DNA of 64,000 nt from Syntrophomonadaceae bacterium (GTDB lineage Bacteria > Bacillota > PH28-bin88). The translations under genes and the position numbers were made by a program. Position 1 is the first letter of the stretch; every line of letters starts with the position of its first letter. The notes under the pieces are model-generated. The model did no database searches and was not told the origin of the DNA. It saw only the letters and a list, made by a program, of their open reading frames with translations. Shown piece after piece: positions 45,381 through 63,653 of the stretch. Where the stretch lies: positions 62,001-126,000 of the forward strand of contig JAGXSE010000037.1 in the NCBI GenBank assembly GCA_018333865.1. The letters run 5' to 3'.

Positions 45381-47170
<1,790 letters not shown>

Positions 47171-48005: not shown

Positions 48006-49922
48006 CTAATTTGTGTTTATAACTTTAACCGATGGAAAAAGATTCAAGTCTGTATGGGGCAGGAACATGGCTGCTACAAACTCCTCCATAAAATTGTTGT
48101 CTGAAGATAGTTCGATATAGGTCATCATTTTGCCAATTCTCTCTGTCTCTTGAAAAGCCTCTCTTGATAACAGAGATAGTTGGGCCCCTTTTACTGAGGT
48201 ATTCCCAACAAATTCATATTTATCGTGACTGATATCAGGCAACAAACCGATTTCTATTGCATCTTCAATGTTGAGATAATTGCCAAAACCTCCGGCAATC
48301 ATAATTTTGTCAACCTGTGAGAGATCCATCTGTACAGCTTTGAGGAGACTCTGGATGCCTGCAAAAATAGCTCCTTTTGACCTGATTACATTTTTGATAT
48401 CACCCTCGGTTAAGACAATGTCTTTGCCGCACTCAGTTTCTTGTGCCCATACCAGAACAAATTCCATACCTTCACTGTTTTTTCTTAATCTTGAAGTCTT
48501 TGCATCACTGTTAAACTTTCCAGTCCGGTCGATTAAACCGGCCTGTCGCAGTTTGGCAATGCTATCGATCAAACCAGAGCCACAAATACCCATGGGTTGT
48601 CGGTCGCCAATAGTCTTGATAAATACTTCCAAAGTATTCCGATCAATCAGAACTCTTTCAATGGCCCCCTTCATTGCCCTCATGCCAAAGGTTATGCCGC
48701 CCCCTTCAAAAGCAGGTCCTGCGGAACATGCACAACACATCAGCCAATCCTTGTTGCCTAACACAATTTCCCCGTTTGTACCGATGTCAATGAACAAAAC
48801 TGTTTCTTCCCTCTTAGCCATTTCAGTCGCCAATACGCCTGAGACAATATCACCGCCAACATAGCTTGCAACGGAGGGCATACAAAAGACCCGGGCATTC
48901 TCATTAAGATCCAGGCCAATTTCAGCAGCAGTTACCGGCAAATAATCAGTAATTACAGGAACATAAGGATCCAGGCGAATATATTTTGGCGAGAGGCCTA
49001 AGAAAAAATGTTCCATGGTGGTATTCCCAGCCACTACTGCTACATAGAGATCCTTCTTGCATGCGTTGTTACGGCTAAAAATTTTTTCCAGCAAATTATT
49101 AATAGTGTTGATCACTGCCTGATGCAGCTTTTGCAACCCATTAGTTTCGGAGGTGGCAAAAATCATCCGGGATATAACGTCATCTCCGTATAGAGCCTGC
49201 TTATTATAGGTTCCCGTTTGGTCAACAACCTGGCCGGTAACCATATCGACCAGCCATAAAACTACTGTAGTAGTGCCAATATCTATAGCTAAGCCGTAGG
49301 CTGGAGTTTCAGAGTGCCCAGGTTCGATGCGGACTATTTCGGATGTGGAGCCATTTAGAGAAACCAGGGTGACTGTGATTCTCCAGTCTCCTTGCCGTAA
49401 CGTCTCGGTTAACATCCTCATGCCGGCTAAACTGATCGTGATATCTTTTTCCACTCTGTATTTTTTGATTTCGTTTTTCACGCGAACCCAGTCACTGGTA
49501 TTTTCTTCTCTTGTCGGGGGCTTCAGCTCTAAAAAAAGTTTTGTGCATAATGGTTTAAAGGCAAAGCCTTTTGTCAAGTCATATTTTTTTTCTGCTAAGA
49601 GTACAGGGCTTTTCCCCAATAACACTTGATGTTCAACCAGGCGGGAATCTTTCGGGACTTCAATAACTAAATTACCTGCAACCCTGGCCTGGCATGCTAT
49701 CACATAGCCTTGCTCTCTCAGTTTTAATGATATTCTGCTCTCATTCCGGTAGTCGATTTTTCCTTGTTTCAGTTTTACTGCACAACGGCCACAAGTACCG
49801 ATAGCACCGCAAGTGCTCTTAAGCTCAATCCCTGCTAGCGCAGCAGCTTGAAGTATTGTGGTGCCAGGCTCTACCAATACCGCAACATCATCGGGATAAA
49901 ACGCAACAAAATACTTGTTCAA
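48006..49922 (-). CDS. Reductive activator of the corrinoid protein (RACo, ASKHA family)
   Basis: 638 residues. The N-terminal 2Fe-2S ferredoxin domain has CGAIGTCGRC with a later CQA; the C-terminal ASKHA ATPase has AIDIGTTTVVLWLVD and IDIGTNGEIVLGN. This is the acetogen activator that uses ATP to return oxidised Co(II) corrinoid to Co(I). It starts with TTG after GGAGTGA. Its position between acsC1 and cooC is the normal one. Confidence 0.94.
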   Translation of the reverse strand: MNKYFVAFYPDDVAVLVEPGTTILQAAALAGIELKSTCGAIGTCGRCAVKLKQGKIDYRNESRISLKLREQGYVIACQARVAGNLVIEVPKDSRLVEHQVLLGKSPVLLAEKKYDLTKGFAFKPLCTKLFLELKPPTREENTSDWVRVKNEIKKYRVEKDITISLAGMRMLTETLRQGDWRITVTLVSLNGSTSEIVRIEPGHSETPAYGLAIDIGTTTVVLWLVDMVTGQVVDQTGTYNKQALYGDDVISRMIFATSETNGLQKLHQAVINTINNLLEKIFSRNNACKKDLYVAVVAGNTTMEHFFLGLSPKYIRLDPYVPVITDYLPVTAAEIGLDLNENARVFCMPSVASYVGGDIVSGVLATEMAKREETVLFIDIGTNGEIVLGNKDWLMCCACSAGPAFEGGGITFGMRAMKGAIERVLIDRNTLEVFIKTIGDRQPMGICGSGLIDSIAKLRQAGLIDRTGKFNSDAKTSRLRKNSEGMEFVLVWAQETECGKDIVLTEGDIKNVIRSKGAIFAGIQSLLKAVQMDLSQVDKIMIAGGFGNYLNIEDAIEIGLLPDISHDKYEFVGNTSVKGAQLSLLSREAFQETERIGKMMTYIELSSDNNFMEEFVAAMFLPHTDLNLFPSVKVINTN

Positions 49923-49956
49923 CTAAGATCACTCCAGCATTATTTACCACAATAAG

Positions 49957-51309
49957 TCAGGATGCAAACTGGTTTTTTGCAAAGGGTACTATGCCGGAAG
50001 CTTCTCTTGGCCCTACTATAACATTCCAGCCGGTAACCTCCTCCAGTTTACCCTTTAAAACAGCTACGGAACCAGGAATAATAAGCTTCCTATGCGATAC
50101 CTTGCCTTCAACCTCAAGTTTTTTCATCACGCTAGCTATTTTATCTGCATCAAACTTTCCATCAGCATAAGCAGTTAACACTGAAAGTCCATCGGTATCT
50201 ACGGATATGATATAACTCGGAATCCTGCTTGTCTCGACTTCTCCCTCAACTAAAAAATACGTCAAAGAAAAATTTGTGGTAACATAAACAGGAGACTCTG
50301 CATTAACCGCACCAATTGCATGAAGTTTTTGTTCTACCTTGATCGGTACTTGCGGATCAGTATAAAGGTTTTGTCTCCAGGTCAGCAAGGGTAAAAGTTG
50401 TTCACTGGCAAATGTTTTTATAAATACCAGACTGGCATATTTGGCAATAAAATTTGCTGCTTGCACAGCTTCTGCCAAGGGATCGCTTTCTGTGGTAAAG
50501 GCGATGAGCGGATAACCAAAGTTGCGAAATCGCTTAGTGATCGCTAAACGCCTGATTTGGGTAAAATGGGCAATTGCCTTTGAAGTCTCGCGGACACCAG
50601 GATCTATTACTAATTGTTTATGGCCCAGGGCAACTATCTTTTCAACCAGTTCCGATAGCGCATCCAGGCCATTGGCAACTACAGCCAGCGGGCAGTTGTT
50701 GGTTTTAGCAAGGCCTGTCATTTTTTCGTAGTTTAAATTGTTGGCAGCATATAATAAAGGTTTTTGCAGCCCAGCTACTTCTAAAGCTGCGGCCATATTT
50801 TCAACGTCGTCCGAGATTAAGACTAAAGGCTTGCCAGAGAGAGATGCAACTTTAACAGCTTTGACAAAAGATCCCTGATCACCGGAGGTGTTTTTAATTG
50901 CAATAAACTGTGTTTTATACTCCAATCCGACTCTTTGCCATGATTGATTTGCGATAGCGGAGATTCTTTCTTCCAGGGCATGATCGTTATCGTCCAGCTG
51001 GATAGCGATAGCTGTTTCCTGATAAAATTTCTTGTCATGACGGAAAAGCTCGGTTTCGCCACCTAGTTCATAAGCTGCAGCACCATTACCAATTGTAATT
51101 TTAGCAATCGGAGGGGCGGAAGCCGATGCCAAAACTGCTCTTGCTTCATCTGTAACGTAAGGGCAGGAATCCAAGGAGGCCTTTCCACTGGCCAGATTCA
51201 TGGCAAAGGCTAGGCAGGTAGGTGGACCACATTCGCCACAATTTTTTTTAGGAAGCTGTTTATAGATTTCCAACCCAGTTAAACCCATTGCTCCTATTAT
51301 TCCTTTCAT
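49957..51309 (-). CDS. acsC: Corrinoid/iron-sulfur protein large subunit (copy 1)
   Basis: 450 residues. The N-terminal 4Fe-4S motif is CGECGPPTCLAFAMNLASGKASLDSCPY (key Cys at about 24, 27, 32 and 49); the central barrel and the C-terminal B12-binding end (GPREASGIVPFAKNQ) match acetogen AcsC closely. ATG at 51309 has no clear ribosome site; the next ATG (MGLTGLEIYKQLPKK) is seven codons on and has AGGAG only two bases before it. A hairpin precedes the gene. Confidence 0.94.
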   Translation of the reverse strand: MKGIIGAMGLTGLEIYKQLPKKNCGECGPPTCLAFAMNLASGKASLDSCPYVTDEARAVLASASAPPIAKITIGNGAAAYELGGETELFRHDKKFYQETAIAIQLDDNDHALEERISAIANQSWQRVGLEYKTQFIAIKNTSGDQGSFVKAVKVASLSGKPLVLISDDVENMAAALEVAGLQKPLLYAANNLNYEKMTGLAKTNNCPLAVVANGLDALSELVEKIVALGHKQLVIDPGVRETSKAIAHFTQIRRLAITKRFRNFGYPLIAFTTESDPLAEAVQAANFIAKYASLVFIKTFASEQLLPLLTWRQNLYTDPQVPIKVEQKLHAIGAVNAESPVYVTTNFSLTYFLVEGEVETSRIPSYIISVDTDGLSVLTAYADGKFDADKIASVMKKLEVEGKVSHRKLIIPGSVAVLKGKLEEVTGWNVIVGPREASGIVPFAKNQFAS

Positions 51310-51320
51310 GACACTTATTA

Positions 51321-51365
51321 GAGGTTGAGCCCTCAGGATTAAATTTAAAAGCTCTCTAAAACCTC
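51321..51365. other. Two-part inverted repeat between acsB and acsC1
   Basis: GAGGTTGAGC (51321-51330) can pair with GCTC (51351-51354) and AACCTC (51360-51365), with a five-base internal bulge, in the 59-base gap before acsC1. No T run follows. It could set the relative expression of the genes on either side or mark a processing site. Confidence 0.5.
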
Positions 51366-51368
51366 AAA

Positions 51369-53552
51369 TTAGATTAAGGGATCCATATTGAAAGCTGGGT
51401 GTCCTTTCTCCTCTAAAAACGGAAGAATTTCTTCGACTGTTACACCGATGGTTTCATCCGCAATTTTATCAATAAATTCTTCCCCTAAACCTTCTTCAAT
51501 ACTGCGACGGATAAAATCCTCATGCAAAAACTCTTTTAATGACTTGGGCATCCAGACAATTCGCCCCAGACCACCGTCAGCCTTAAGAAACTTGCGGGAT
51601 AGGAGGTAGGAGCGACCAATTCCCATGAAACCAGGTGTCTGCACACCGCCACCGACCAATCCGGCCAGGGTAGAGAAGGTCATTCCGGACGGCGTATTGC
51701 CGGCATAATCACGGGTTGTAATCATGAGCCCATTCGCCTCCGGTACAATAGCCAGAATTGCTTCAAAACAGCCGCAAGAAGTCATTGGCTTGTCCATCAA
51801 TGTATACAGGTTAACCTCTTCTACGTTGCGGTTGGAAGTCTCGGCAACATAATCGTTAACCTCCTGCCACATCCCGCGCTCAAGGTCAATTGGCTTATTT
51901 TTTCTAACCGGTCTGTTTGGGCCGTTCGGGTCGATTTCATAAGAAGCCCTGGCATCGAGCCAGCTGACCGCACCACAAAGGCCCACCCGCTCAGGGGAAA
52001 CAATACAGACATGGTTTGGCGCGAACGACTGGCACAGAGTACAGGAATACAGGACATCTACCACTTCATCGGTTAAGCCCTTAAGGCGAGCATCTCTGGC
52101 TTTATAACGATCCCTGGCCACAGTGAGCATCTGTTCCACTTTTTCCCTGTCTGTTAACAGGATCACCTCTACCCGGTCCACAATAGCCGGGAAGTCGTTT
52201 TTGAACTTGGCTACCAGTATTTCACCTAGATGGCGGAGGTTAAATCCTTTGGTTCTGGCTTCCTTGGAAATACGGAGCCAGCACAGATCCCGCTGCGCTA
52301 CGTGCCAGAGTCCCTCGCCGTAGTTGACAAAATAGTGAATGCGTCTTTCCAGCACGCTCTCAAAATCTTCCTGCATTTTGCGGCCAAAGATTTTAACAAT
52401 AATGCCTAAGGGCAATTTCCCGCCTTCAGGTAGTTCATCAAGGTCTGGTCCAAGCAAGGTAACCCTGCCGTCTGTAATCTCCCCCTCCTGTACCATTTGC
52501 ACCAACTCAAAGGCCGGCGTGCGTCCCCCGCCAAATTCCACGAACATTTCATCCTTACGGATGGTTTCACCTTCGAAGGATGGGCCATAGTTTACCGGGA
52601 TGGGTATTTCTACAATTTTAAGCTTGATGCCCCGCAGTTCCAGACAATAACTTACGATATTCTCGTAATCGGGATGAGACACATACCAACCAGGAATTTC
52701 TTCTTCCAGTTTTGTATCACAGATGACAGGAAATCCGAGGAAAATGGCCGCAAAATGGGCAGCAACCTGAACATCATCGATTCCCCCAAGGTGTAAAACG
52801 AAAGCATTTACCCGCCGATGCTGGTAGCTTCGATGTTCTTCACGCAGACCGGGAGCAATGCCGCCAAAAGCCATGCCGGCCCGCAGCGCATAGTTTACAG
52901 CATGAATAACCTGGGTAAAATTGCCCAGAGGAAAAGCTATATAGTCCACACCCAGCTTCATGTTCTGCTCCAGCAGCTGTTCGATTACCTCATTAACGAG
53001 GAAAATCATCATTCCTTTTGACTGCAGTTCCTGAATAATCTTAGCGGCAGCTTCGCTGGTGCGGGCTTTCCCGATGATAATAGCCTGCCCTGGAATGGTC
53101 CAATCTACTAGTTGAATGCCGAATTTACGCAAGAAAGGGTCACCCAAAAATCCAGTCCAGGGTGACACGTGAGGCTTGGCACCACGAAGATAACGCAAGG
53201 CCTCGACAATCTCGGCGGCATAGGCTGTCGCCTCACCACATAAAAGAGCGTTAGATAAATTCAGTTCCTCTTTCAGTTGGGAGCGCATCCTGTTTAAAAT
53301 TGGCGGCAACTCGCCTAGACGGGTGACTTTCTCACCCGAAAGACATGTGATTACCGGCAAAAAATACGCCGTATCCGGAAAAGACACCGGCTCGTTTTGC
53401 CCATAGCAGCGAATGGCTTGGCTTAGCAAAATCTCCGCATAACCGGTAGCGATAATTGCCCCGTTTAAGGCGCGGCCAAACAGTTTGTGGGGAGATTTTC
53501 CCAAGGTAGAGAGTGCGTCACTGTAAATTTCCTCAAAGGCAGTCGTTGGCAT
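51369..53552 (-). CDS. acsB: CO dehydrogenase/acetyl-CoA synthase, beta subunit (full bacterial form)
   Basis: 727 residues, the usual bacterial length, including the ~310-residue N-terminal CODH-contacting domain missing in archaeal CdhC. The A-cluster cysteines are in CTLCQSFAPNHVC near residue 503, GLCGAVSW, and TSCGCFEA near 592. It joins methyl, CO and CoA to acetyl-CoA at a Ni-Ni-4Fe4S centre. ATG at 53552 follows GAAGGGAG; seven upstream residues in frame are not conserved. Confidence 0.97.
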   Translation of the reverse strand: MPTTAFEEIYSDALSTLGKSPHKLFGRALNGAIIATGYAEILLSQAIRCYGQNEPVSFPDTAYFLPVITCLSGEKVTRLGELPPILNRMRSQLKEELNLSNALLCGEATAYAAEIVEALRYLRGAKPHVSPWTGFLGDPFLRKFGIQLVDWTIPGQAIIIGKARTSEAAAKIIQELQSKGMMIFLVNEVIEQLLEQNMKLGVDYIAFPLGNFTQVIHAVNYALRAGMAFGGIAPGLREEHRSYQHRRVNAFVLHLGGIDDVQVAAHFAAIFLGFPVICDTKLEEEIPGWYVSHPDYENIVSYCLELRGIKLKIVEIPIPVNYGPSFEGETIRKDEMFVEFGGGRTPAFELVQMVQEGEITDGRVTLLGPDLDELPEGGKLPLGIIVKIFGRKMQEDFESVLERRIHYFVNYGEGLWHVAQRDLCWLRISKEARTKGFNLRHLGEILVAKFKNDFPAIVDRVEVILLTDREKVEQMLTVARDRYKARDARLKGLTDEVVDVLYSCTLCQSFAPNHVCIVSPERVGLCGAVSWLDARASYEIDPNGPNRPVRKNKPIDLERGMWQEVNDYVAETSNRNVEEVNLYTLMDKPMTSCGCFEAILAIVPEANGLMITTRDYAGNTPSGMTFSTLAGLVGGGVQTPGFMGIGRSYLLSRKFLKADGGLGRIVWMPKSLKEFLHEDFIRRSIEEGLGEEFIDKIADETIGVTVEEILPFLEEKGHPAFNMDPLI

Positions 53553-53579
53553 ACTTTTTCTCCCTTCGCCCAATTTCCG

Positions 53580-56276
53580 CTACCAGGTAGCCGTAAGTGA
53601 TGTGCCGAATTTTTGAGCAGCCTCTCCATGAATCCTCAGTTTCCATGAGCGTGCCTGCAACGCAGCCATAATTTCTTCTGCCGCCCGCAGCGGATCTGTT
53701 TCCCAGATAAAATGGCCGCCGAAGACGTCCTGCGCAATGTCCAGCAAAAGACCATTGACCAGGCCGCTACCGAGAACCGGAGGAATAACACCGACATGGA
53801 CAGGCAGGCCCATGGCTACATTCCAGGAACCTATAGACAGGGATTTCTCCGTCATTGCTTCCGGCGCACTGGCAGCAAATGGGATTTTGGGAGTATCGAC
53901 ACCCAGATCATTAGCAATGGCTGTAGCCAGGTCGGCAGCTCTGGTGTTGTCTACACAGGAGCCCATATGAAACACAAGCGGCAGGCCGCCCTGAAGTTTT
54001 TGGGCATTAGCCTCCTCCAAGCGCCGCAGGAAGGCTTTCAGCCCCTCTCCGGCATAAATCTCAACTGCCTCAGGGGTGAGCAGTCCAAGCTTTGCAAAGG
54101 CTCCGGCGGCACAGCCGGTAGCCAATAAAAAGACATCTTTCTTAGCTAACGATTTGGCTATAGTAATATAACTGTTGTCCTGAGTAGTCTTTAAATTGTT
54201 GCATCCAGCAAACAGCACCACACCGCGCAGTTCTCCGCACTTCAACGCTTCAGTCAGCACACTAACCGGAGCAGCGGGGTTCAGCGCTGAAAACAGGTCG
54301 TAAAGGGTTTCCAGGCTGAATCCGGCGACCACCTTGGATTTGACTGCCGGAATAAAGCAAGGCGTACCTGCTCGTTCCCGGTAAGCTGCAATCGCCAGGC
54401 GGATTACATCCTTGGCTTTAAGCAGTGCATTTTCTGTGGTAAAGTCTAAATAATGGGAGCCTGGGATACGGGCATTTTTAGCTGTCGTGACTATCCGTGT
54501 CTTGAAGCACTCGGCAACTGCCTGAACGCTGGGCATAATACACTGTACATCCACCACCATCACATCTAAGGCCCCAGTCATAATCGGCAGCTCCTGGGAC
54601 ATAAAATTGGTTGCCAGCGGTACACCCTGGCGCATCAAGACCTCGTTACCGGTACAGCAGACACCCATTAACTGGATACCATTGGCTCCGGCCTCTTCCG
54701 CCTCTTTTTCCAGCTCCCGCGCTGCCCGGACAATCATTTCCGACAAGAGCGGGTTATGACCATGAACAGCAATGTTAACCTTTGTCTGATCTATCACACC
54801 CAGGTTAGCCTCAGTATAGACCGGAACGGGAACACCAAAGAGCACATCAGAAAGGTCAGTCCCTACATGCATTCCGGCAAAATCAGCCAGTGCCGCCTCC
54901 AGTGTTTTAAAAACCAGGCTGACCGGATCTGCATCCATCCCCAAGTGGGTCTGGCTCATGGCGGTGGCGATAGTGTCAAAAATGCTGGTCGGCAAAATAT
55001 CTGTCTCCCGGAACTTTTTGACGCGGTCAGGTGTAACTACCTTCTCCACCCACTGCAGGTAGCCATCGCTCAGACGGCCGTATTCCGCCAGGCCGCAATC
55101 CACCACATCGCGCAAAATATCTATATTATCGCGCCCTAGTGTCGAAATGCCCAGCCTTTCTGCTATGGCCAATAATTTTTGCGGACTGGAGATTTTGTAA
55201 TCTCCAGATCTCCCCTCCGCCACTGACTTCAAAGTGAGCAGGATATGCTTGGCATGATCCGAATGGGCTGCCGTACCACCAAGAACGGAACGAAGCAAAT
55301 TACGAGCTACAATGGTGTAAGCGGTAGCGCCGCAGACGCCTTTAGGGGCGGCGGATGTGATCTGGCACGGCCCCTGGATACAAATACGGCAACAAATGCC
55401 AGTATCACCGTAGCGGCACTGGGGCTGTTGCGCCAAATAGCGATCATAGGCGGTAGCGACCGGTAATTTCCTAGCCAACATCCCTTGCACTGCAGGGTCG
55501 GCAGACCTTTGCCGGTCCTCTGCCAGGCTGGTGGCCGTCGCAACTGCTTCCCGGTGCAGCTCGCCCGCGAAGTGCAGGATCGTGTCTTTAAGTTCCCGGT
55601 CCATCTTCATGCTGCCGGTACAGGGATAATTGTGCCATTTGTTGCCAACTATTTCCGCCAGTTTCTCGTCATCCGGCACCCCAGCCAGGTTGCGGGCAAC
55701 AAAATAGGCCGCTCCGCATGGAGAACTTTGCACAACTCTCGCTTCCTGGATTACCCCGTCCAGCTTTTTGATGCTGAATTGGGGATAACCGATCCGAAAA
55801 TAGCGGATAAACTTGTTAACCTCCGGATGCACTGCATTTTCCCGCAACGCGCAAAATGGTTTGGGGAAAACAATCTCCAAACTAGTTCCACGGGCCTTTT
55901 GCTCTACCTGACGGCGTGCGCCACCTTGTAACCAAAGCGGATCCTCTAGCGGTACAACCAGTGCTTTAACACCAGCCTGGACACAAAGCTCCGGCAAGGA
56001 AAGCAAAATGTCTTGATGCAGGTTGATAGCCAGTACAGTATGCACGCCGTTTAAAGCAGAAACAGGCGGCAGGTACTGGATCGGGTCTTCTTCCAGCATC
56101 ACCGGCAGATTATTGGGCTGTTCCCAGACCAAGACAATGTCCCGGGAATAATTCAAGTCGTACTGCCGACGACATTCGGTGCAGTCGGTACAACCGGTGC
56201 AAAATTTTTCCACATCCTGCAGGTGGCTATGAATTTTTTGGCCGAAGGACCCGCTATATAAAATAGCTATTTTCAC
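53580..56276 (-). CDS. acsA: CODH catalytic subunit (AcsA/CooS) fused to an N-terminal DUF166-like domain
   Basis: 898 residues. Residues ~1-235 are a DUF166-like domain: start MKIAILYSGSFG, Cys at 26, 29, 32 and 35 (CTGCTDCTEC), SSPCGAAY near 185 and YPCTGSM near 217, leading into DTILHFAGELHREAV. From ~240 a complete bacterial CODH follows: D/B cluster CRYGDTGICCRICIQGPC near 285-303, and C-cluster ligands in HGHNPLL, GVCCTGN, DVQCIMPS, FAGCNNLK, ATGCAAGA and MGSCVDN. All six are present, so CO/CO2 chemistry is expected. GTG at 56276 behind AAGGAGG is chosen. No stop separates the two domains. Confidence 0.92.
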   Translation of the reverse strand: MKIAILYSGSFGQKIHSHLQDVEKFCTGCTDCTECRRQYDLNYSRDIVLVWEQPNNLPVMLEEDPIQYLPPVSALNGVHTVLAINLHQDILLSLPELCVQAGVKALVVPLEDPLWLQGGARRQVEQKARGTSLEIVFPKPFCALRENAVHPEVNKFIRYFRIGYPQFSIKKLDGVIQEARVVQSSPCGAAYFVARNLAGVPDDEKLAEIVGNKWHNYPCTGSMKMDRELKDTILHFAGELHREAVATATSLAEDRQRSADPAVQGMLARKLPVATAYDRYLAQQPQCRYGDTGICCRICIQGPCQITSAAPKGVCGATAYTIVARNLLRSVLGGTAAHSDHAKHILLTLKSVAEGRSGDYKISSPQKLLAIAERLGISTLGRDNIDILRDVVDCGLAEYGRLSDGYLQWVEKVVTPDRVKKFRETDILPTSIFDTIATAMSQTHLGMDADPVSLVFKTLEAALADFAGMHVGTDLSDVLFGVPVPVYTEANLGVIDQTKVNIAVHGHNPLLSEMIVRAARELEKEAEEAGANGIQLMGVCCTGNEVLMRQGVPLATNFMSQELPIMTGALDVMVVDVQCIMPSVQAVAECFKTRIVTTAKNARIPGSHYLDFTTENALLKAKDVIRLAIAAYRERAGTPCFIPAVKSKVVAGFSLETLYDLFSALNPAAPVSVLTEALKCGELRGVVLFAGCNNLKTTQDNSYITIAKSLAKKDVFLLATGCAAGAFAKLGLLTPEAVEIYAGEGLKAFLRRLEEANAQKLQGGLPLVFHMGSCVDNTRAADLATAIANDLGVDTPKIPFAASAPEAMTEKSLSIGSWNVAMGLPVHVGVIPPVLGSGLVNGLLLDIAQDVFGGHFIWETDPLRAAEEIMAALQARSWKLRIHGEAAQKFGTSLTATW

Positions 56277-56344
56277 TTTGGCTGCCTCCTTGTTACTGTC
56301 CACGCCGTCAGATCTAAGCAATCATTCAACTGGTTTCACAAACC

Positions 56345-57709
56345 TTAAGCTACGCTATTGCGACGTTTTTTCAGCTCATGCAAATATTTGGGCAGGTCAG
56401 TCGCCTCTCTTGGGCCAACAAGAATTTCCCAGCCAGGCAACTCATCTTCCAGGTCACCCTTAAGGCGAGCCACATACCCAGGGAGGATCAGCTGCTTATG
56501 AGTCACCTTATCGGCTAAGGATTGTTTCTTGACCATTTCAGCAATTGTCTCCGGAACGAACTTGCCGGTAGACCAGGCTGCCAGCACACATAAGCCTCCC
56601 GTATCCTGGCAAAGCAAATATACAGGCAGCTTGCTGTTTTCCGTCTCACCAGCCACAGCGTAATATGTCAGGGCAAAGTTGGTCGTGACCAGCACAGCAG
56701 CACTTTCATCTGCCTCGTTAAAGGAATAGACCTTGCTTTCAACAGTTGGCGCCACTCTCGGATCAGTATAAATATCCTGGCGTACTGTCAATAATGTCTC
56801 GAAACCCGCTGGCGAAACATCATCCAGGACAATAATACCAGCATACCTTGCTATACCTGCGGAAGCTAACAGCAGTTGGGTGTCTATATCGGAGGTAACT
56901 GCTGGTCCATAAAAGAGGGTCGGATAACCTAAGGTTCTAAACTTATGCAATAAAGAAGCACGACGGATGATTGTTTGATCCCGAACCAGGTCCGGCAGGG
57001 TGCGGGAACCAGGTTCCAGCACCAGGTTTTCCAGACCCATTTCCTTCAGTTTTCCTGACAGGTCAGCCAGGGTTTCCAGGCTTTTAGCCCTGGCGCAGAC
57101 AGCGGCGCTCTTATCGAGATTAGGCACAACTTGCGTATAGTTCTCAGCGGTAACACAGACCAGCGGGTTCCTGTTCTTACTTGCTTCGTAGGCGGCAAGC
57201 AAACAGCCGGGCTCATCAGCCATCAGGATCAGGCCGGCGTCAGTTTCCGCCAAGGTTCTTTCCACCAGTTTATGGTACCGGCTGCTGTCTCCACTGGTGC
57301 AGTGTAAAGCCACCAGATCAAAGCGGGATATTTTGTCAAGCCTATCATACTGCCAGGCCAGTTTGGCCAGCTTGTTGCCCCAGATCTCTTCGCTTTCTCC
57401 GTCAGCGATCTGCAAGGCAAGTCCGGGCGGTTGTAAAAAGGTTTTTTGGTGGCGGTACATTACCTCTTCTGCACCGATGACCACTTGCCTGGGTCCCTGG
57501 CCAATTTTAACCTGCCTGATCGGTGGTTGGAGCATGTCTTCTATTTGTGCCTTTGAATCTAACGAAAGATAGGAACACTTTTCCAGCGCAATACCAGCAT
57601 TAGCCAATTTCATGGCAAAAGCAAAACAGGTGGCTAAACCGCATTCCTTGCAGTTTTTCTTGCCGTTTTCCGGTAATAACTTCTGAATATCCGAAGCTTT
57701 TACAGGCAT
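56345..57709 (-). CDS. acsC2: Corrinoid/iron-sulfur protein large subunit (copy 2)
   Basis: 454 residues, a diverged paralogue of the acsC1 product. The 4Fe-4S motif reads CKECGLATCFAFAMKLA with a fourth Cys in EKCSYL; the barrel and the C-terminal LVGPREATDLPKY are kept. It lies between cdhC and the fused CODH gene and is therefore likely to serve the archaeal-type complex (role of CdhE). ATG follows GAAAGGAG. Whether it descends from AcsC duplication or from a CdhE lineage needs a tree. Confidence 0.9.
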   Translation of the reverse strand: MPVKASDIQKLLPENGKKNCKECGLATCFAFAMKLANAGIALEKCSYLSLDSKAQIEDMLQPPIRQVKIGQGPRQVVIGAEEVMYRHQKTFLQPPGLALQIADGESEEIWGNKLAKLAWQYDRLDKISRFDLVALHCTSGDSSRYHKLVERTLAETDAGLILMADEPGCLLAAYEASKNRNPLVCVTAENYTQVVPNLDKSAAVCARAKSLETLADLSGKLKEMGLENLVLEPGSRTLPDLVRDQTIIRRASLLHKFRTLGYPTLFYGPAVTSDIDTQLLLASAGIARYAGIIVLDDVSPAGFETLLTVRQDIYTDPRVAPTVESKVYSFNEADESAAVLVTTNFALTYYAVAGETENSKLPVYLLCQDTGGLCVLAAWSTGKFVPETIAEMVKKQSLADKVTHKQLILPGYVARLKGDLEDELPGWEILVGPREATDLPKYLHELKKRRNSVA

Positions 57710-57735
57710 ATAAACACTCCTTTCAAGCAGGGTTA

Positions 57736-58923
57736 TTAAAGCCGCCCAGCGTTCTGCATGAATTCGGTCAGTTCATCTACGTTTTGCACATCTTTTTCAG
57801 TAGCGATTTTATCGGCCAGCTCTGCCGGAATACTATCTTTTGCTGATTCTTTTAACGTAGAGGTCATCCAGGCAACCCGGTTAAAGCCGCCATCAGCAAT
57901 CAAAAATTTGGGTGACCTGAGATACTGAATGCCGATTCCGACATAGCCTTCATTTTGCTTGCCACCACTAGCCAGACCAGCCAGGGTAGAAAATGGATCG
58001 CCGATTACAGTTGACCCGACAAAGTCCCTGGAGACAATGCCAAAGCCATCAACTTCGGGGATGTAAAATACAATTGCCTCGAAACAGCCACAGGAAGTAT
58101 GCGGATAGGAAAGGGCACTGTGGAGGCTAAATTGGGTTGTTTCTCCCATAGAACGCTCAGTTACCACCTTGTTAACATTGTCATAAGAGATATTCTCAGG
58201 GTCGACGAGGTTGCCCTTGGGCACAGCAAACTGAGCACCCTCGGGGTCAACCTTGGTGGCAGCGCGACCGTCGAGCCAGTTAATGGCGCCACAGAGTGAA
58301 ATACGCTCTGGCGTGATAATGCAGACATGGGTGGGAGCAAAGCTTTGACAGAGGACACAACCGTAGAATTCCTCCACGTCCTCCTCCCGCATGCCCTGAA
58401 TTCTGTCATCCCGCTCTTTATATACCTGCATGGCTCCTGCCAGCAACTCCTGAACCTTAACCTGGTCGGTAACAAATTCCACCGACATTTTTTCAATCAC
58501 CGGCAGTTCTGCAGTAAAGAGATCGATGAGAATCCGCCCTACATGTTCCAGTGAGTTTAAGCCTTTTTTATAGGCATTTTTATGGATGCGGATCCAGATA
58601 TCGTAGCGCTGTGCCATATGAAAGACGCCTTCCAGGTAATTGATATATTGATGGATACGCCGCTCCAACACCGCTTCCAGATCTTTTTCCAGCGCTTCCC
58701 CAGCCACGTCTATCTTAATAAAAATAGGGCTGGAGGTGCCTTCCGGCAAATCTTTAATATCGGGCCCGGTAATGATAATTTGATCGTGCTCTACCTCATC
58801 GAGGCCCTTGACAGTGACCAGTTCACCCTTTTGGGCCACCTCCGGGCCACCAAACTCTACCTGGAATTCATTTTTGCGAATTCTTTCCCCTTCATACTGC
58901 GGACCAACGTCTACCACGTACAT
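57736..58923 (-). CDS. cdhC: Acetyl-CoA synthase beta subunit of archaeal type (CdhC)
   Basis: 395 residues, starting directly at VDVGPQYEGERIRKNEFQVEFGG and thus lacking the N-terminal CODH-binding domain of bacterial AcsB. This is the normal archaeal CdhC build, not a truncation, because a good GGGAGG site and ATG sit exactly at that point. A-cluster cysteines are in CVLCQSFAPTHVC (near 185), SLCGAINW and TSCGCFEA. It presumably works with CdhA/CdhB and the second corrinoid protein. Confidence 0.94.
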   Translation of the reverse strand: MYVVDVGPQYEGERIRKNEFQVEFGGPEVAQKGELVTVKGLDEVEHDQIIITGPDIKDLPEGTSSPIFIKIDVAGEALEKDLEAVLERRIHQYINYLEGVFHMAQRYDIWIRIHKNAYKKGLNSLEHVGRILIDLFTAELPVIEKMSVEFVTDQVKVQELLAGAMQVYKERDDRIQGMREEDVEEFYGCVLCQSFAPTHVCIITPERISLCGAINWLDGRAATKVDPEGAQFAVPKGNLVDPENISYDNVNKVVTERSMGETTQFSLHSALSYPHTSCGCFEAIVFYIPEVDGFGIVSRDFVGSTVIGDPFSTLAGLASGGKQNEGYVGIGIQYLRSPKFLIADGGFNRVAWMTSTLKESAKDSIPAELADKIATEKDVQNVDELTEFMQNAGRL

Positions 58924-58960
58924 GTTACCTTACCTCCCTTAAGTATATTTTTTAAATTAT

Positions 58961-59521
58961 TTACTCAGTGGTGCCAAGTGCACTTACCAACTCTGACAAA
59001 TACTCCTGCCACTTTTCCCTCTTCACAAGCACCGGTACGGCAAAGTCAGCATTGGGGTGGCTGCGGCGGCAAATTGCGAAGGTTTTCAAGTGGGGGGCAA
59101 AGTGTTTCAGGGTGGCCAGCCCGCGTTCAGCCAGATCGCACCTCACACCGGTAAACAGCACCAAGTCATGGTAGCCCTTACCGCGAACACCAGCCCATTC
59201 CTTGTCCTTTAAGAAATGGATGATCTCAATGATGTCATAGGTTGAATCGGGACGAACTCCCAGTTCCAGCATCTTTCTCTTGACATGAGCCGTGGCACAT
59301 ATGGGAATATTGCGTGACTTGGCAATTTCAAGCGCATAATCAATCAGCAATCTGTCACCTACAGGCGAATCGATAACTTCCGGGCCAAAAATATACAATG
59401 GATTTTTAGCCTTTTCAATTATTTTTGCCGCCTCACCCGGCAAAGCAACTACCTTGGCTGCTTTGGTGCCAGTTAAAACATTGACTTTGTAGTAAGGCAA
59501 GGTCATTAACTCTGTGGTCAT
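58961..59521 (-). CDS. cdhB: CODH epsilon subunit of archaeal type (CdhB)
   Basis: 186 residues with a DHS-like Rossmann fold as in methanogen CdhB: AKNPLYIFGPEVIDS near residue 40, a central strand-rich core and the end RREKW-type VPVLVKREKWQEYL. CdhB binds the CdhA dimer and has no counterpart in the bacterial AcsA/AcsB enzyme. ATG follows GGGAGGGATC. Its place between cdhA and cdhC matches archaeal operons. Confidence 0.92.
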   Translation of the reverse strand: MTTELMTLPYYKVNVLTGTKAAKVVALPGEAAKIIEKAKNPLYIFGPEVIDSPVGDRLLIDYALEIAKSRNIPICATAHVKRKMLELGVRPDSTYDIIEIIHFLKDKEWAGVRGKGYHDLVLFTGVRCDLAERGLATLKHFAPHLKTFAICRRSHPNADFAVPVLVKREKWQEYLSELVSALGTTE

Positions 59522-59540
59522 ACAAGATCCCTCCCGATTC

Positions 59541-61847
59541 TTATTTTATAGTCGCCTCAATGGGAACTTTTGTCTCATAAGTGCCGATAATTGTCGGCAA
59601 GGAAAGGACAGGCTTAGGCTGCCAACCTACTTCCTTCAAGTATGCCAGCACTTCCCGCTTGTAAACAATGGGGATCTCTTTTTCTGTGCGGACGAAGTTC
59701 TGCAAGTCATCGGGAAGGGCACCAATAACCTGCTTGTATGCGGAAATGTAACTATTCAGCTTGATGGCCCGGCCTGGTGGCGTGTCATTGCGGCGGAAGC
59801 ACTGCTTGATGATGGTGACCAGCGCTCTCTCCTTTGTTTCCGTAACCAGCATCATGTGTTCCGGTGTAGGCTCGCCGGTGTCAACCCTTTGCTTGGTCCG
59901 GCCGTCAATTACCGTCCAGTCACCCATTTCTTTTTTACTCATAAACAGGCGGCGGTACTTGGAGCCGTGCGGACCAAGAACAACCGGAATGCCCCAGCGC
60001 ACTGCCCCGGTTCCAATGGCCAGAGCCTTTTGGGAATAAGGACCCCAAACCACACCACAGGCTCCAACGCGGTTTAAAATATAGTCGGACATCAATTCAA
60101 AGTTGGCCCGATTCGGCAAGGTGGCAAATATATTAGCGATTTTGATCGCAGCCCCCACGACATGGGCATTAGCAACACAGGAACCGACGTTGACGATACA
60201 GCCGGCATCAAATTCGGGTGTGTATTTTTCATAAATAGTCTTGCCGTCTGCATCTTTTCTCATGGCTGCAGCCATAGCCGCACAGCCGGAAAGGGTGACG
60301 ATATACTTGCGCCGAGCCAGCTCTTCTGCTAACCAGGCTACATCATCAATATCGCCAGGGAAATTGGAACAGCCGGCAAAAAGTACAACCCCGGGGATAG
60401 TGCCTAGAACAATAGGCGATCCGACCTTCCTGATTTCCACGTCATGAATCGGGCCACGGCCAGAGCGCATTTTATAGGTGTCCCAGGTAGCAGCCGCTTG
60501 CATTATACGCAGGATTGGGATTTGGTGTACACATGCCTCTTCGCACTTGGCGCAACCATGGCAACGCAGGAACACTTCGCCTAACTTAGCAAAATTACCT
60601 TGTCTGGCCTGATTTACACCTGAACTTACAGGCAAAAGGTTAGGACAGGCTCTATTGCATGCTTCACAAGTTCCTGGGCATTTTCCAGCCAGAACTGATG
60701 CCTCCGTTTGGTTTAAAAGTTGCTTTTTGACGCTGCGATTGGGAGCCAGGGCAAGGGCGGCCCGCACGATTACTTCAGCCGCTTTTTCCGGATCTAAGAT
60801 CAAATACTGTTTTTGTTTTTCCAGCACTTCGCGTAGAATATCATCAGCTTCTCTGGCTGAGGCGTTTTCCAGTCCATAGCATATCTTATCTGAACAAGCA
60901 ATCATTGCCGCTCCGGCTTCTCTTGCCATCTGCGGAATATCTGTAACTACACACTGCTCATCAGTAACCACCACATCAGCAAGGCCTGCTTTTAAGAAAA
61001 AGCGCTGCCGCGAGAGCGGGCCAATCACTTTGGCACCACTGGCATACCGGGTCACGTCATGGGCTGTGCAACATAGTCCCCCCACCTCCACTTGATCATA
61101 GAGGTTGTGTTTTTGCAGATAATCGATAATCGCATTAGCCGTAACAGCATTGTGCCCCACAACTACAATGGTGGGCTTCGTTCTGTCTATGGCGCCCCAA
61201 CCCAGATCAACTAACGGTGTGTCTGCTACAGAAGTAGGCAAACCGTACCCAACAATTTGGGCAATATCGGCCGCTTCCAGCGCTACATGATCCAGCATAC
61301 CGGCATGAAAGGCCTTGGATTCAAAATCCCGGTAATTACCTTCTTGCCCCATATGGGTAGAAGATACCAGATGAATCATTTCCCGCTCAACGTATTCAAT
61401 AGCCTTGCGCAGGTCGCCAAGGTTTTCTGGTTTAAGGCCCATCACTGTCCTGATAATCGGGGCCTCTACGTTAACCTGGCTGCCGAGGTCAATTTTACGG
61501 TCTTCACCATATTTTTCAATCAGGTGATCGATCATGTGCCGGCCATGGGCGCCATGTGCCGCCGTGCCCATCAAAGAACAAATCAGGATCCACCTGGCCT
61601 GCTGCGAGGCAATGTCTATGCCGCAGGCGCCTTTTTTGTCTCCTGTCAAGTCGCATTTGCCATAGGTGCAAAGACAGCATAAGTCGCAAAACGGAGCATA
61701 AAAAGGCTCATACGTGTCAAGGAGGCGAAAGTCCCAATTGCGCAGGTCTGTCAGTGTGGGCATCGGTGTCGGACCAATCGGCTCCCAGGTGTCGTCTGCC
61801 TTGATTATTGTTTTAATTTCTGCTTCTCTCATATTGCTTTTTAACAT
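59541..61847 (-). CDS. cdhA: CODH catalytic alpha subunit of archaeal type (CdhA)
   Basis: 768 residues, far longer than bacterial CooS (~640). N-terminal cluster cysteines are at 54, 57, 58, 60 and 65 (CDLCCLCTYGKC). Two extra ferredoxin motifs typical of archaeal CdhA are present near 389 (CPGTCEACNRACP) and 429 (CHGCAKCEEACVH). C-cluster candidates are VVGHNAV, GLCCTAHD, TDEQCVVT, FAGCSNFP, LSGCAAMA and VGSCVANAH. It oxidises CO or reduces CO2 within the alpha2-epsilon2 unit with CdhB. ATG follows GAGGGAGG. Confidence 0.95.
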   Translation of the reverse strand: MLKSNMREAEIKTIIKADDTWEPIGPTPMPTLTDLRNWDFRLLDTYEPFYAPFCDLCCLCTYGKCDLTGDKKGACGIDIASQQARWILICSLMGTAAHGAHGRHMIDHLIEKYGEDRKIDLGSQVNVEAPIIRTVMGLKPENLGDLRKAIEYVEREMIHLVSSTHMGQEGNYRDFESKAFHAGMLDHVALEAADIAQIVGYGLPTSVADTPLVDLGWGAIDRTKPTIVVVGHNAVTANAIIDYLQKHNLYDQVEVGGLCCTAHDVTRYASGAKVIGPLSRQRFFLKAGLADVVVTDEQCVVTDIPQMAREAGAAMIACSDKICYGLENASAREADDILREVLEKQKQYLILDPEKAAEVIVRAALALAPNRSVKKQLLNQTEASVLAGKCPGTCEACNRACPNLLPVSSGVNQARQGNFAKLGEVFLRCHGCAKCEEACVHQIPILRIMQAAATWDTYKMRSGRGPIHDVEIRKVGSPIVLGTIPGVVLFAGCSNFPGDIDDVAWLAEELARRKYIVTLSGCAAMAAAMRKDADGKTIYEKYTPEFDAGCIVNVGSCVANAHVVGAAIKIANIFATLPNRANFELMSDYILNRVGACGVVWGPYSQKALAIGTGAVRWGIPVVLGPHGSKYRRLFMSKKEMGDWTVIDGRTKQRVDTGEPTPEHMMLVTETKERALVTIIKQCFRRNDTPPGRAIKLNSYISAYKQVIGALPDDLQNFVRTEKEIPIVYKREVLAYLKEVGWQPKPVLSLPTIIGTYETKVPIEATIK

Positions 61848-61872
61848 TTCTTATTTCCTCCCTCTCCAGAAC

Positions 61873-62754
61873 TTAGTTGACCAAGGCTCTAACGCGCTGC
61901 AGACTTTCCGGATGACGTAAGGTTACGATGTCTGCACCGGCAATTAACAGGGTAAATGCAGTAAGTGCTTCCCAAAGAATACCTTTATCTGCATCCTGGG
62001 TTGCTTCCTTGGTTTTCCATGCCTCCTTCCCCACCCTGGCAATCAATGGCGACTGCAAGGTTTTATCGTCATGTACGATCGCCGAGAGGCGAATGCGTTC
62101 CATGGTGGAATAAGCATAATCCAGTCCGTAGCCGGCAGCACAAGTCAGGGGATCAATAACTATCCTGTCTAGCGGGAATATCTTGCTGAGCCTGATGTTT
62201 AAATCTTTGGCCAAATTGATATCCATGGGAATCTGAGCGATAATTGCGTGCCCGTGTTCGAGGGCCACAGGTGCTATTTCCTGATAATTCTCCTTCAGTA
62301 CCGGACCAATTAATAAGTTCATCCCGCTGCAGGTTGCGGCCACCACCGGCAGAACGGCAGCATCTTTTTCTTTCTCGCCCAAGCCAAAAACTACCAGCGG
62401 TACGTCAACTGCTTCGGCAACTTTTTTTACGCCGGCAGCAATCTCTATTGCCGGCAGATCCTTTTCCATGCTGTTCAGATTCAGAAAAATCATCTCTGCC
62501 CCAAAGACTTCCACACATTTTTTAGCCCAGGCAACCGGAGACGATTTAACATCCGCGTAAAGATCCTGCAGACACAGTGTCCAGTCAGCCGGTTCGCTGT
62601 CAGTTATTTCCAGAGCAAGCTTTAGTTTAGCCGGTCTTCCTTCAAAAAAATGAAAAGGCAAGGTATTTTGTCCGCCAACTCCTATTTTTTTGACTTCTGG
62701 CCCCAGTACCAGTTCCTTGATTTCGCCAGGGTATTTTTCTATAAACTTTTCCAT
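61873..62754 (-). CDS. acsD2: Corrinoid/iron-sulfur protein small subunit (copy 2, diverged)
   Basis: 293 residues, a shorter and divergent AcsD/CdhD barrel. Shared marks are [45 protein letters not shown] and YGLDYAYSTMERIRL; the GGTRSH loop and the end NIDQLMVSN of copy 1 are missing. It lies between acsE2 and cdhA and probably pairs with the acsC2 product. Confidence 0.9.
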   Translation of the reverse strand: MEKFIEKYPGEIKELVLGPEVKKIGVGGQNTLPFHFFEGRPAKLKLALEITDSEPADWTLCLQDLYADVKSSPVAWAKKCVEVFGAEMIFLNLNSMEKDLPAIEIAAGVKKVAEAVDVPLVVFGLGEKEKDAAVLPVVAATCSGMNLLIGPVLKENYQEIAPVALEHGHAIIAQIPMDINLAKDLNIRLSKIFPLDRIVIDPLTCAAGYGLDYAYSTMERIRLSAIVHDDKTLQSPLIARVGKEAWKTKEATQDADKGILWEALTAFTLLIAGADIVTLRHPESLQRVRALVN

Positions 62755-62774
62755 ATTTTCAGCCTCCCCGCGTT

Positions 62775-63653
62775 TTAAACTTCCAGCCAGGACGGAGAAT
62801 ACAGCTCTCGCCCCATGATGACCCTGGCTGTCTTATAGTAGTCCCTTTCGACTGGAGACATGACGGTCATGTCCAAGTCTTCGCCATCTATTACCTGGTG
62901 GATAATAGATACGATTTCCTGTTTTTTGCCGGAATTCAGTTCGATCAGATCCTGATCAAAACTATCCACAATAGCAGAATACAAACCAGCTTGCTCAAAA
63001 ACAACCATCACTACTTGGTTTAGGATATGACGCAAGTGTCGCGGAGTGCCGTTTGATACGTTGGAAAGTCCAATCACAGACTTGACGCCAGGAGCGATAT
63101 CCGGCAGCATTTTGATGAGTTCCACTGACTCTAAAATGTCCTGCTGGCCAACTCCTACAGGCATCAGAATTGGGTCAACCCAGATGTCTTCCGTCGGAAT
63201 GCCGAGACTGTGGGCATAATCGATTGTTTCCATGATGGACTCAGCCCGGGAAGCAGCATCAGAGGGGATGCCGGCATCGTTGAGCACCGAAATTACCACA
63301 TTGGCATTATATTTTTTGGCCAGCGGTAGCATCCGTTCTTTACTGTCCTTAGTACCATTTGCAGAATTAATCAGCGGTCTTTGCCGGCAAATAGCCAGGC
63401 CAGCTTCCATAGCAACAGGATTAGTAGTATCAAGGGAAAACGGAAGGTCGACAACTTCCTGAATAGCATTAACAAGCCAGCTCATGGTTTCGGTCGGATT
63501 TTTGCGCGCAGGACCGATGTTCAAATCAATATATTGCACACCGCACTCAGCCTGCTTGCTGGCCAACTCCTGCAGAGGACGCGCATCTCTGCCAATAAGA
63601 GCTTCCGAAACGACCTTGGAGAGAATCTGAATGTTTTCTCCAATTAGAATCAT
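62775..63653 (-). CDS. acsE2: Methyltetrahydrofolate:corrinoid protein methyltransferase (copy 2)
   Basis: 292 residues, about 30 more than copy 1 because of an extended C-terminus (VSIIHQVIDGEDLDMTVMSP region). Motifs: MILIGENIQIL start, YIDLNIGPARKN, PFSLDTTNPVAMEAG, INSANGTKDSKERM, WVDPILMPVGVGQQD. Starts with a normal ATG behind AGGGGG. It is the first gene of the 26-kb run and should load methyl groups on the second corrinoid protein. Relationship to MtvA/MtgA-type methyltransferases is possible for such diverged copies. Confidence 0.88.
   Translation of the reverse strand: MILIGENIQILSKVVSEALIGRDARPLQELASKQAECGVQYIDLNIGPARKNPTETMSWLVNAIQEVVDLPFSLDTTNPVAMEAGLAICRQRPLINSANGTKDSKERMLPLAKKYNANVVISVLNDAGIPSDAASRAESIMETIDYAHSLGIPTEDIWVDPILMPVGVGQQDILESVELIKMLPDIAPGVKSVIGLSNVSNGTPRHLRHILNQVVMVVFEQAGLYSAIVDSFDQDLIELNSGKKQEIVSIIHQVIDGEDLDMTVMSPVERDYYKTARVIMGRELYSPSWLEV

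Follow-up and report, generated by a model that had tools for sequence, protein, structure and literature searches.

Fusion of a DUF166 domain to a CODH catalytic subunit suggests a partnership between DUF166 proteins and the CODH/ACS machinery

We identified a gene encoding a complete DUF166 domain joined to a complete CODH catalytic subunit (CooS/AcsA), the enzyme that supplies carbon monoxide for making acetyl-CoA, within a 64,000-nucleotide stretch of a Syntrophomonadaceae genome (contig JAGXSE010000037.1, hereafter the window). The Wood-Ljungdahl pathway, which many regard as the most ancient way of fixing carbon, has CODH/ACS as its central enzyme, and the building and upkeep of the nickel-iron clusters in CODH/ACS are only partly understood. 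The fusion is of value mainly because it ties DUF166, a functionally uncharacterised family, to CODH/ACS in both Bacteria and Archaea. We favour, at about an even chance of its being right, the reading that DUF166 is a maturation or reductive-activation factor acting on the CODH catalytic subunit. More tentatively, we propose that Bacteria and Archaea widely share DUF166 as an overlooked subunit or accessory factor of CODH/ACS. It would bind the CODH catalytic subunit and assemble or reactivate the metal clusters of that subunit, and of the sequence evidence for such a partnership the fusion is the most direct.

The fusion gene lies on the minus strand, which an earlier sequence-only reading of the window had not named, and is free of internal stops from its GTG to its stop codon (Table 1). 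That reading had described a well-placed ribosome-binding site, a full N-terminal DUF166 domain and a CooS with all cluster ligands, and each of these was borne out. The DUF166 profile PF02593 matches residues 5-248 over profile positions 2-218 of 221 with 166.7 bits against a curated cut-off of 24.4 bits, and the CooS profile TIGR01702 matches residues 260-881 over positions 3-620 of 621, its curated cut-off being 478 bits. The motifs that had been picked out by eye (C-x2-C-x2-C-x2-C at residues 26-35, SSPCGAAY, YPCTGSM and HREAV) are all present. AlphaFold2 predicts one confident domain for DUF166 alone, and for the whole fusion two domains separated by a short linker at approximately residues 252-260 (pLDDT 86.6, pTM 0.75).

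Table 1 Features of the fusion gene and of the surrounding CODH/ACS operon, in window positions
Feature	Positions	Strand	Basis
acsE-type methyltetrahydrofolate:corrinoid methyltransferase	62775..63653	minus	NF005719 E=1e-67, below its cut-off
acsD/cdhD	61873..62754	minus	NF003376 343 bits
cdhA, archaeal-type CODH alpha	59541..61847	minus	TIGR00314 1024 bits
cdhB, epsilon subunit	58961..59521	minus	TIGR00315 118 bits
cdhC, archaeal-type acetyl-CoA synthase beta	57736..58923	minus	NF003379 613 bits
acsC/cdhE, hybrid cluster, directly upstream of fusion	56345..57709	minus	NF003195 467 bits
AAGGAGG ribosome-binding site	56285..56291	minus	8 nt ahead of GTG; sequence reading
DUF166-CooS (AcsA) fusion gene	53580..56276	minus	single open frame; 898 aa; GTG start
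DUF166 domain, residues 1-251	55524..56276	minus	PF02593 E=7.9e-49; AF2 pLDDT 93.4, pTM 0.90
C26-x2-C29-x2-C32-x2-C35 motif	56172..56201	minus	specific to one DUF166 branch
Invariant C142	55851..55853	minus	apparent selenocysteine beside C142 in Desulfobacterota DUF166
Invariant C187 (SSPCGAAY)	55716..55718	minus	family alignment
Invariant C219 (YPCTGSM)	55620..55622	minus	family alignment
Short linker, residues 252-260 (~9 residues)	55497..55523	minus	AF2 of whole fusion; Pfam/NCBIfam limits
CooS/AcsA catalytic part, residues 261-898	53580..55496	minus	TIGR01702 716 bits; 7zkj E=6e-235; all cluster ligand motifs present
acsB, bacterial acetyl-CoA synthase, next downstream of fusion	51369..53549	minus	NF040764 1064 bits
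acsC (CdhE-type corrinoid subunit), bacterial cluster	49957..51309	minus	NF003195 573 bits
RACo/AcsV-type corrinoid activator	48006..49922	minus	sequence character; homologues in the same place in related operons
Further AcsD-type match	~46361-47092		profile match

Among the best PDB matches, the closest relatives of the CooS half are the CODH subunits of CODH/ACS-type enzymes, 7zkj (probably from C. hydrogenoformans) and 1mjg (Moorella). The C-cluster ligand motifs VHGHNP, GVCCTG, VQCIMP, FAGCNN, TGCAAG and GSCVDN align with these structures, and the alignment with 7zkj places ligands for clusters B, C and D. An identity as archaeal CdhA was rejected (TIGR00314, 72.5 bits against a cut-off of 781). 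The protein shares with bacterial AcsA/CooS the whole CooS fold, the B-, C- and D-cluster ligand motifs and an operon with acsB, acsC and RACo, but where solved AcsA chains have about 28 residues before the first conserved helix it carries the additional DUF166 domain of 251 residues. The source genome holds a single DUF166 copy, and its three further CooS genes, located elsewhere, are without the domain.

Gene order in the window is acsE-acsD-cdhA-cdhB-cdhC-acsC-[DUF166-CooS]-acsB-acsC-RACo-like, so that the fusion stands at the joint between a hybrid archaeal/bacterial operon (acsE-acsD-cdhABC-acsC) and a bacterial one (acsA-acsB-acsC), both contained in one apparent operon at 48006-63653. 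The block upstream of the fusion has the make-up of the hybrid CODH/ACS (acsED-cdhABC-acsC) published for serpentinite acetogens (PMC6305446, PMC7325909, PMC9751293), and PMC9751293 states that the Firmicutes lineages also have bacterial AcsABCDE. DUF166 is unnamed in these three papers, and the passages of them that were searched describe no fused AcsA. Elsewhere in the searched literature DUF166 was named in only two papers, each time as an entry in a selenoprotein table and without mention of CODH, and a literature search on MJ0757/MTH774 returned nothing useful. While the hybrid operon is already published, no description of the DUF166-CooS fusion turned up in the literature searched, in keeping with the sequence-only reading, which had known of no such CODH.

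Scanning 84,980 species, each represented by one genome, recovered the continuous DUF166-CooS frame in four further genomes, three CROMO bins labelled Clostridium or Dethiobacter (L014, L015, L017) and the Bacillota genome HKB214 (L019), giving a total of five, all of Dethiobacter type. These homologs are 83-87 % identical over the protein, with dN/dS of approximately 0.02-0.08 in DUF166 and 0.04-0.06 in CooS and synonymous sites near saturation, so by sequence comparison the fusion is under strong purifying selection. Recurrence of the same frame in four further genomes together with low dN/dS shows that the fusion is real and no sequencing error; an artefact, a frameshift and chance read-through at the join were rejected on the same grounds.

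Three related loci represent natural deletions of the CooS half. On one contig, read directly, L016 has a stop directly after DUF166 and CooS is reduced to its last 75 residues further downstream. L020 likewise has a stop after DUF166, followed by a few linker-like residues (RFADP); CooS is gone and a CooC-like ATPase is the next gene. In L018, on a contig labelled Candidatus Hakubella S34, the CooS frame stops early and a DDE transposase gene adjoins (L018:2695-3267). DUF166 was found in only one of 40 genomes of Hakubella's class, on a 3.7-kb contig, which may reflect transfer or bin contamination. DUF166 itself is intact at all three loci (dN/dS of approximately 0.03-0.14 against relatives) and adjoins the hybrid cdhABC operon in L016 and L020, the L018 contig being too short to tell. 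All five intact-fusion genomes have a full AcsB, and the genomes of L016, L018 and L020 have AcsB fragments or none; these are draft environmental genomes, and in that of L020 (G156, only 1.2 Mb) the absence may reflect incompleteness. CooS and AcsB appear from these sequences to have been lost together and DUF166 kept. Since DUF166 is intact where CooS is deleted or interrupted, it is more than a component of its own CooS, and the deletions suggest that the whole CODH/ACS operon, and not that CooS alone, is what it serves. The genomic tie to CODH proposed in the sequence-only reading stands, but not a use limited to the fused subunit; the further suggestion of that reading, that the domain supplies electrons to the fused CODH, assembles it or gates it, is a conjecture.

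Outside the fusion genomes stand-alone DUF166 is the rule, and the species-wide scan placed the family in Bacillota, Desulfobacterota, Chloroflexota, Spirochaetota, Actinomycetota and several archaeal phyla. Its gene is found in a number of Wood-Ljungdahl contexts. In Tepidanaerobacteraceae/Thermosediminibacteraceae the order is fhs-DUF166-fchA-folD, and cooS and acs genes lie close by. Spirochaetota/Fibrobacterota have RACo-cooC-acsD-acsE-DUF166, and Anaerolineae have fhs-DUF166-cooS-acsB. In Archaea, DUF166 follows cdhD-cdhE in Hecatellales, and in Bathyarchaeota the order is cdhABC-cdhD-cdhE-cooC, DUF166, a corrinoid protein, a second DUF166 and an AcsV-type activator. Two such bathyarchaeal loci, in which the paired DUF166 genes flank the corrinoid-binding protein beside an AcsV/RamA-type activator gene, are L064:9866-12243 and L080:5696-8175. 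In three Desulfobacterota-type genomes (L124, L126, L127) DUF166 lies inside the hybrid operon next to cdhB; where the cdhA junction is covered (L124 and L126), cdhA precedes it and cdhB follows, and the DUF166 start codon shares an ATGA with the stop codon of cdhA. Another Desulfobacterota locus (L125) reads acsB-acsD-acsC-RACo-cooC and then DUF166.

CooC is the Ni-insertion ATPase of CODH. It is an accessory gene of the same operons, and a CooC-like ATPase directly adjoins DUF166 in Dethiobacter (L020), Desulfobacterota (L110, L111, L125) and Bathyarchaeota (L064). CooC belongs to an unrelated P-loop ATPase family, however, and a profile search matched DUF166 to no such family. SufC-SufB lie directly upstream of DUF166 at six deltaproteobacterial loci (L048, L050, L051, L053, L054, L128). 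In five Methanobacteriaceae members DUF166 is extended at its C-terminus by a 4Fe-4S ferredoxin-type domain, assigned by Pfam in L046, L049, L056 and L060 and by cysteine count in L047. Many loci have other neighbours, including the ribonucleotide reductase NrdJ, the cobalt-precorrin methyltransferase CbiF, arsenic-type genes and a P-type ATPase: ArsP-like and ArsC/flavodoxin-like genes accompany DUF166 in L048, and a CbiF-type precorrin methyltransferase gene follows it in L046. Among the closest outside relatives of the window domain (43-44 % identity) are those of Oleimmundimicrobium-type Actinomycetota (L021, L022), where DUF166 follows a gene of about 700 codons that in L021 encodes a B12-dependent ribonucleotide reductase.

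DUF166 and CODH/ACS tend to co-occur. Among 198 Desulfobacterota-type genomes, ACS was present in 33 of the 38 with DUF166 and in 94 of the 160 without (p = 6e-4, kinship ignored), and DUF166 lay within 6 kb of ACS in five genomes as against about 0.13 expected by chance, kinship again being ignored. In the window's phylum (151 genomes) CdhD/AcsC was found in six of seven genomes with DUF166 and 42 of 144 without (p = 0.004, likewise ignoring kinship). Five of the 38 Desulfobacterota, and genome G001 (84 % complete), have DUF166 without CODH/ACS; because of such genomes, and of the many loci with other neighbours, the chemistry of DUF166 must be broader than CODH.

C142, C187 and C219 are invariant in all 66 aligned DUF166 members, the window protein included, and D231 and H235 are nearly so. 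The four-cysteine motif at residues 26-35, which the sequence-only reading had pointed out, is not the core site of the family; it occurs in only one of two deep branches of the family and is degraded within that branch; as a marker of Wood-Ljungdahl context it was not significant (Fisher p = 0.11). Seven Desulfobacterota members (L112, L114, L115, L118-L121) have an in-frame TGA directly before the first invariant cysteine (PPT/I-U-C), apparently encoding selenocysteine, and cysteine versions of this site have TCC. The fusion is no member of the DfsP selenoprotein subfamily (NF041372, 39.6 bits against a cut-off of 200), nor has it a DfsP-type selenocysteine site, since its frame contains no TGA and F141 stands beside the first invariant cysteine. 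It shares with PF02593 a full-length match, the three invariant cysteines and common P/G and D/H positions, and differs from the other members sampled, which stand alone or are ferredoxin-fused, in being fused to an enzyme and in lacking selenocysteine. The sequence-only reading had characterised DUF166 as small Fe-S or seleno proteins of methanogens and some anaerobes; the thiol richness and the apparent selenocysteine of relatives agree with this, but the family is not mainly methanogenic.

The pattern of cysteine conservation suggests an Fe-S cluster. A profile search of the PDB with DUF166 found no related solved structure, and a fold search found weak partial Rossmann-type matches only (TM approximately 0.35 at best) and no pterin-enzyme fold. 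An older annotation of the family, presumably as a putative thymidylate synthase, was rejected: DUF166 and Prismane are the only families that match the fusion, and the genome encodes ThyX as a separate gene and lacks ThyA.

The gene product would be a two-domain CODH in which DUF166 precedes an AcsA/CooS subunit partnering AcsB. Within the CODH/ACS (Wood-Ljungdahl) machinery DUF166 may serve as an accessory protein whose target, and presumably binding partner, is the CODH catalytic subunit; most lineages would encode it separately in the same operon, and in the window it is a tethered domain. The CooS fusion, the cdhA overlap and the repeated proximity of CooC point to that subunit as the partner, although CooC is in any case frequent in CODH/ACS clusters. 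SufBC neighbours, selenocysteine and the invariant thiols suggest that the chemistry involves metals or redox reactions. C142, C187 and C219, probably with H235, could provide a thiolate or Fe-S/metal site on a scaffold of Rossmann-like fold, through which the domain would mature, repair or reductively activate the metal clusters of CODH. For an accessory role we counted the five-genome fusion, the cdhA overlap, the operon contexts, co-occurrence, the deletions, the invariant cysteines, apparent selenocysteine and the ferredoxin fusions; against it we counted DUF166 without CODH/ACS, the other neighbours, and the lack of a solved relative or a convincing fold match.

Several of these observations would also fit an electron-transfer subunit whose metal/thiol site works between the D-cluster of CODH and a donor, with the fusion making the transfer intramolecular. 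The ferredoxin-type fusions of Methanobacteriaceae, the extra four-cysteine motif in the window domain's own branch, the apparent selenocysteine beside C142 and the position between cdhA and cdhB are all in its favour. This main rival is nevertheless somewhat unlikely in our estimation: the extra site is lost or degraded in many members, SufBC or CooC adjoin DUF166 elsewhere, and in one large lineage the gene lies between fhs and fchA with no CODH gene directly adjoining. The fhs-DUF166-fchA-folD operons speak for a pterin or corrinoid enzyme or sensor of one-carbon metabolism in the Wood-Ljungdahl pathway, for which the fusion would only co-regulate or co-localise DUF166 with CODH. The corrinoid-binding protein and AcsV-type activator of Bathyarchaeota, the ribonucleotide reductase and CbiF neighbours, and the older thymidylate synthase annotation tend the same way. 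We consider such a role improbable, as direct fusion to CooS and overlap with cdhA point to the CODH subunit as partner, no pterin-enzyme fold was matched, and with ThyX in the source genome DUF166 is not needed for dTMP.

The fusion might instead be a near-neutral accident, a stop codon having been lost between neighbouring operon genes, with DUF166 working separately and the tether meaningless. L016 and L020, in which DUF166 ends at a stop and survives on its own, agree with this, as does the prevalence of the stand-alone form elsewhere. Retention of the fused form over divergence that reaches synonymous saturation, in five genomes or more, and the independent coupling to cdhA in Desulfobacterota, leave little room for it, and we hold it to be quite improbable. 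A maturation or reductive-activation factor of the CODH catalytic subunit remains our preferred reading.

Taken with the overlapping gene and the conserved operon contexts, the fusion provides DUF166 with a first testable partner and site of action. Many bacteria and archaea that are unrelated to each other have the same domain beside CODH/ACS, which suggests a helper of ancient carbon fixation that had gone unrecognised; Thermosediminibacter, Thermovorax, Fervidicola and relatives are cultured anaerobes with a relevant DUF166 context.

A separate observation concerns CdhC/ACS-like proteins of five Desulfobacterota-type genomes (L132 in G234, L133 in G267, L134 in G348, L135 in G198 and L136 in G341), whose genes contain two in-frame TGA codons. 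The pair falls on both cysteines of the A-cluster Cys-Gly-Cys (YPMTSUGUFE compared to YPHTSCGCFE in the CdhC of the window), apparently making these proteins a Sec-Gly-Sec homolog of acetyl-CoA synthase, which was not found in the two selenoproteome reviews searched. Four further cysteines (CxxC...C...C) are kept in all five.
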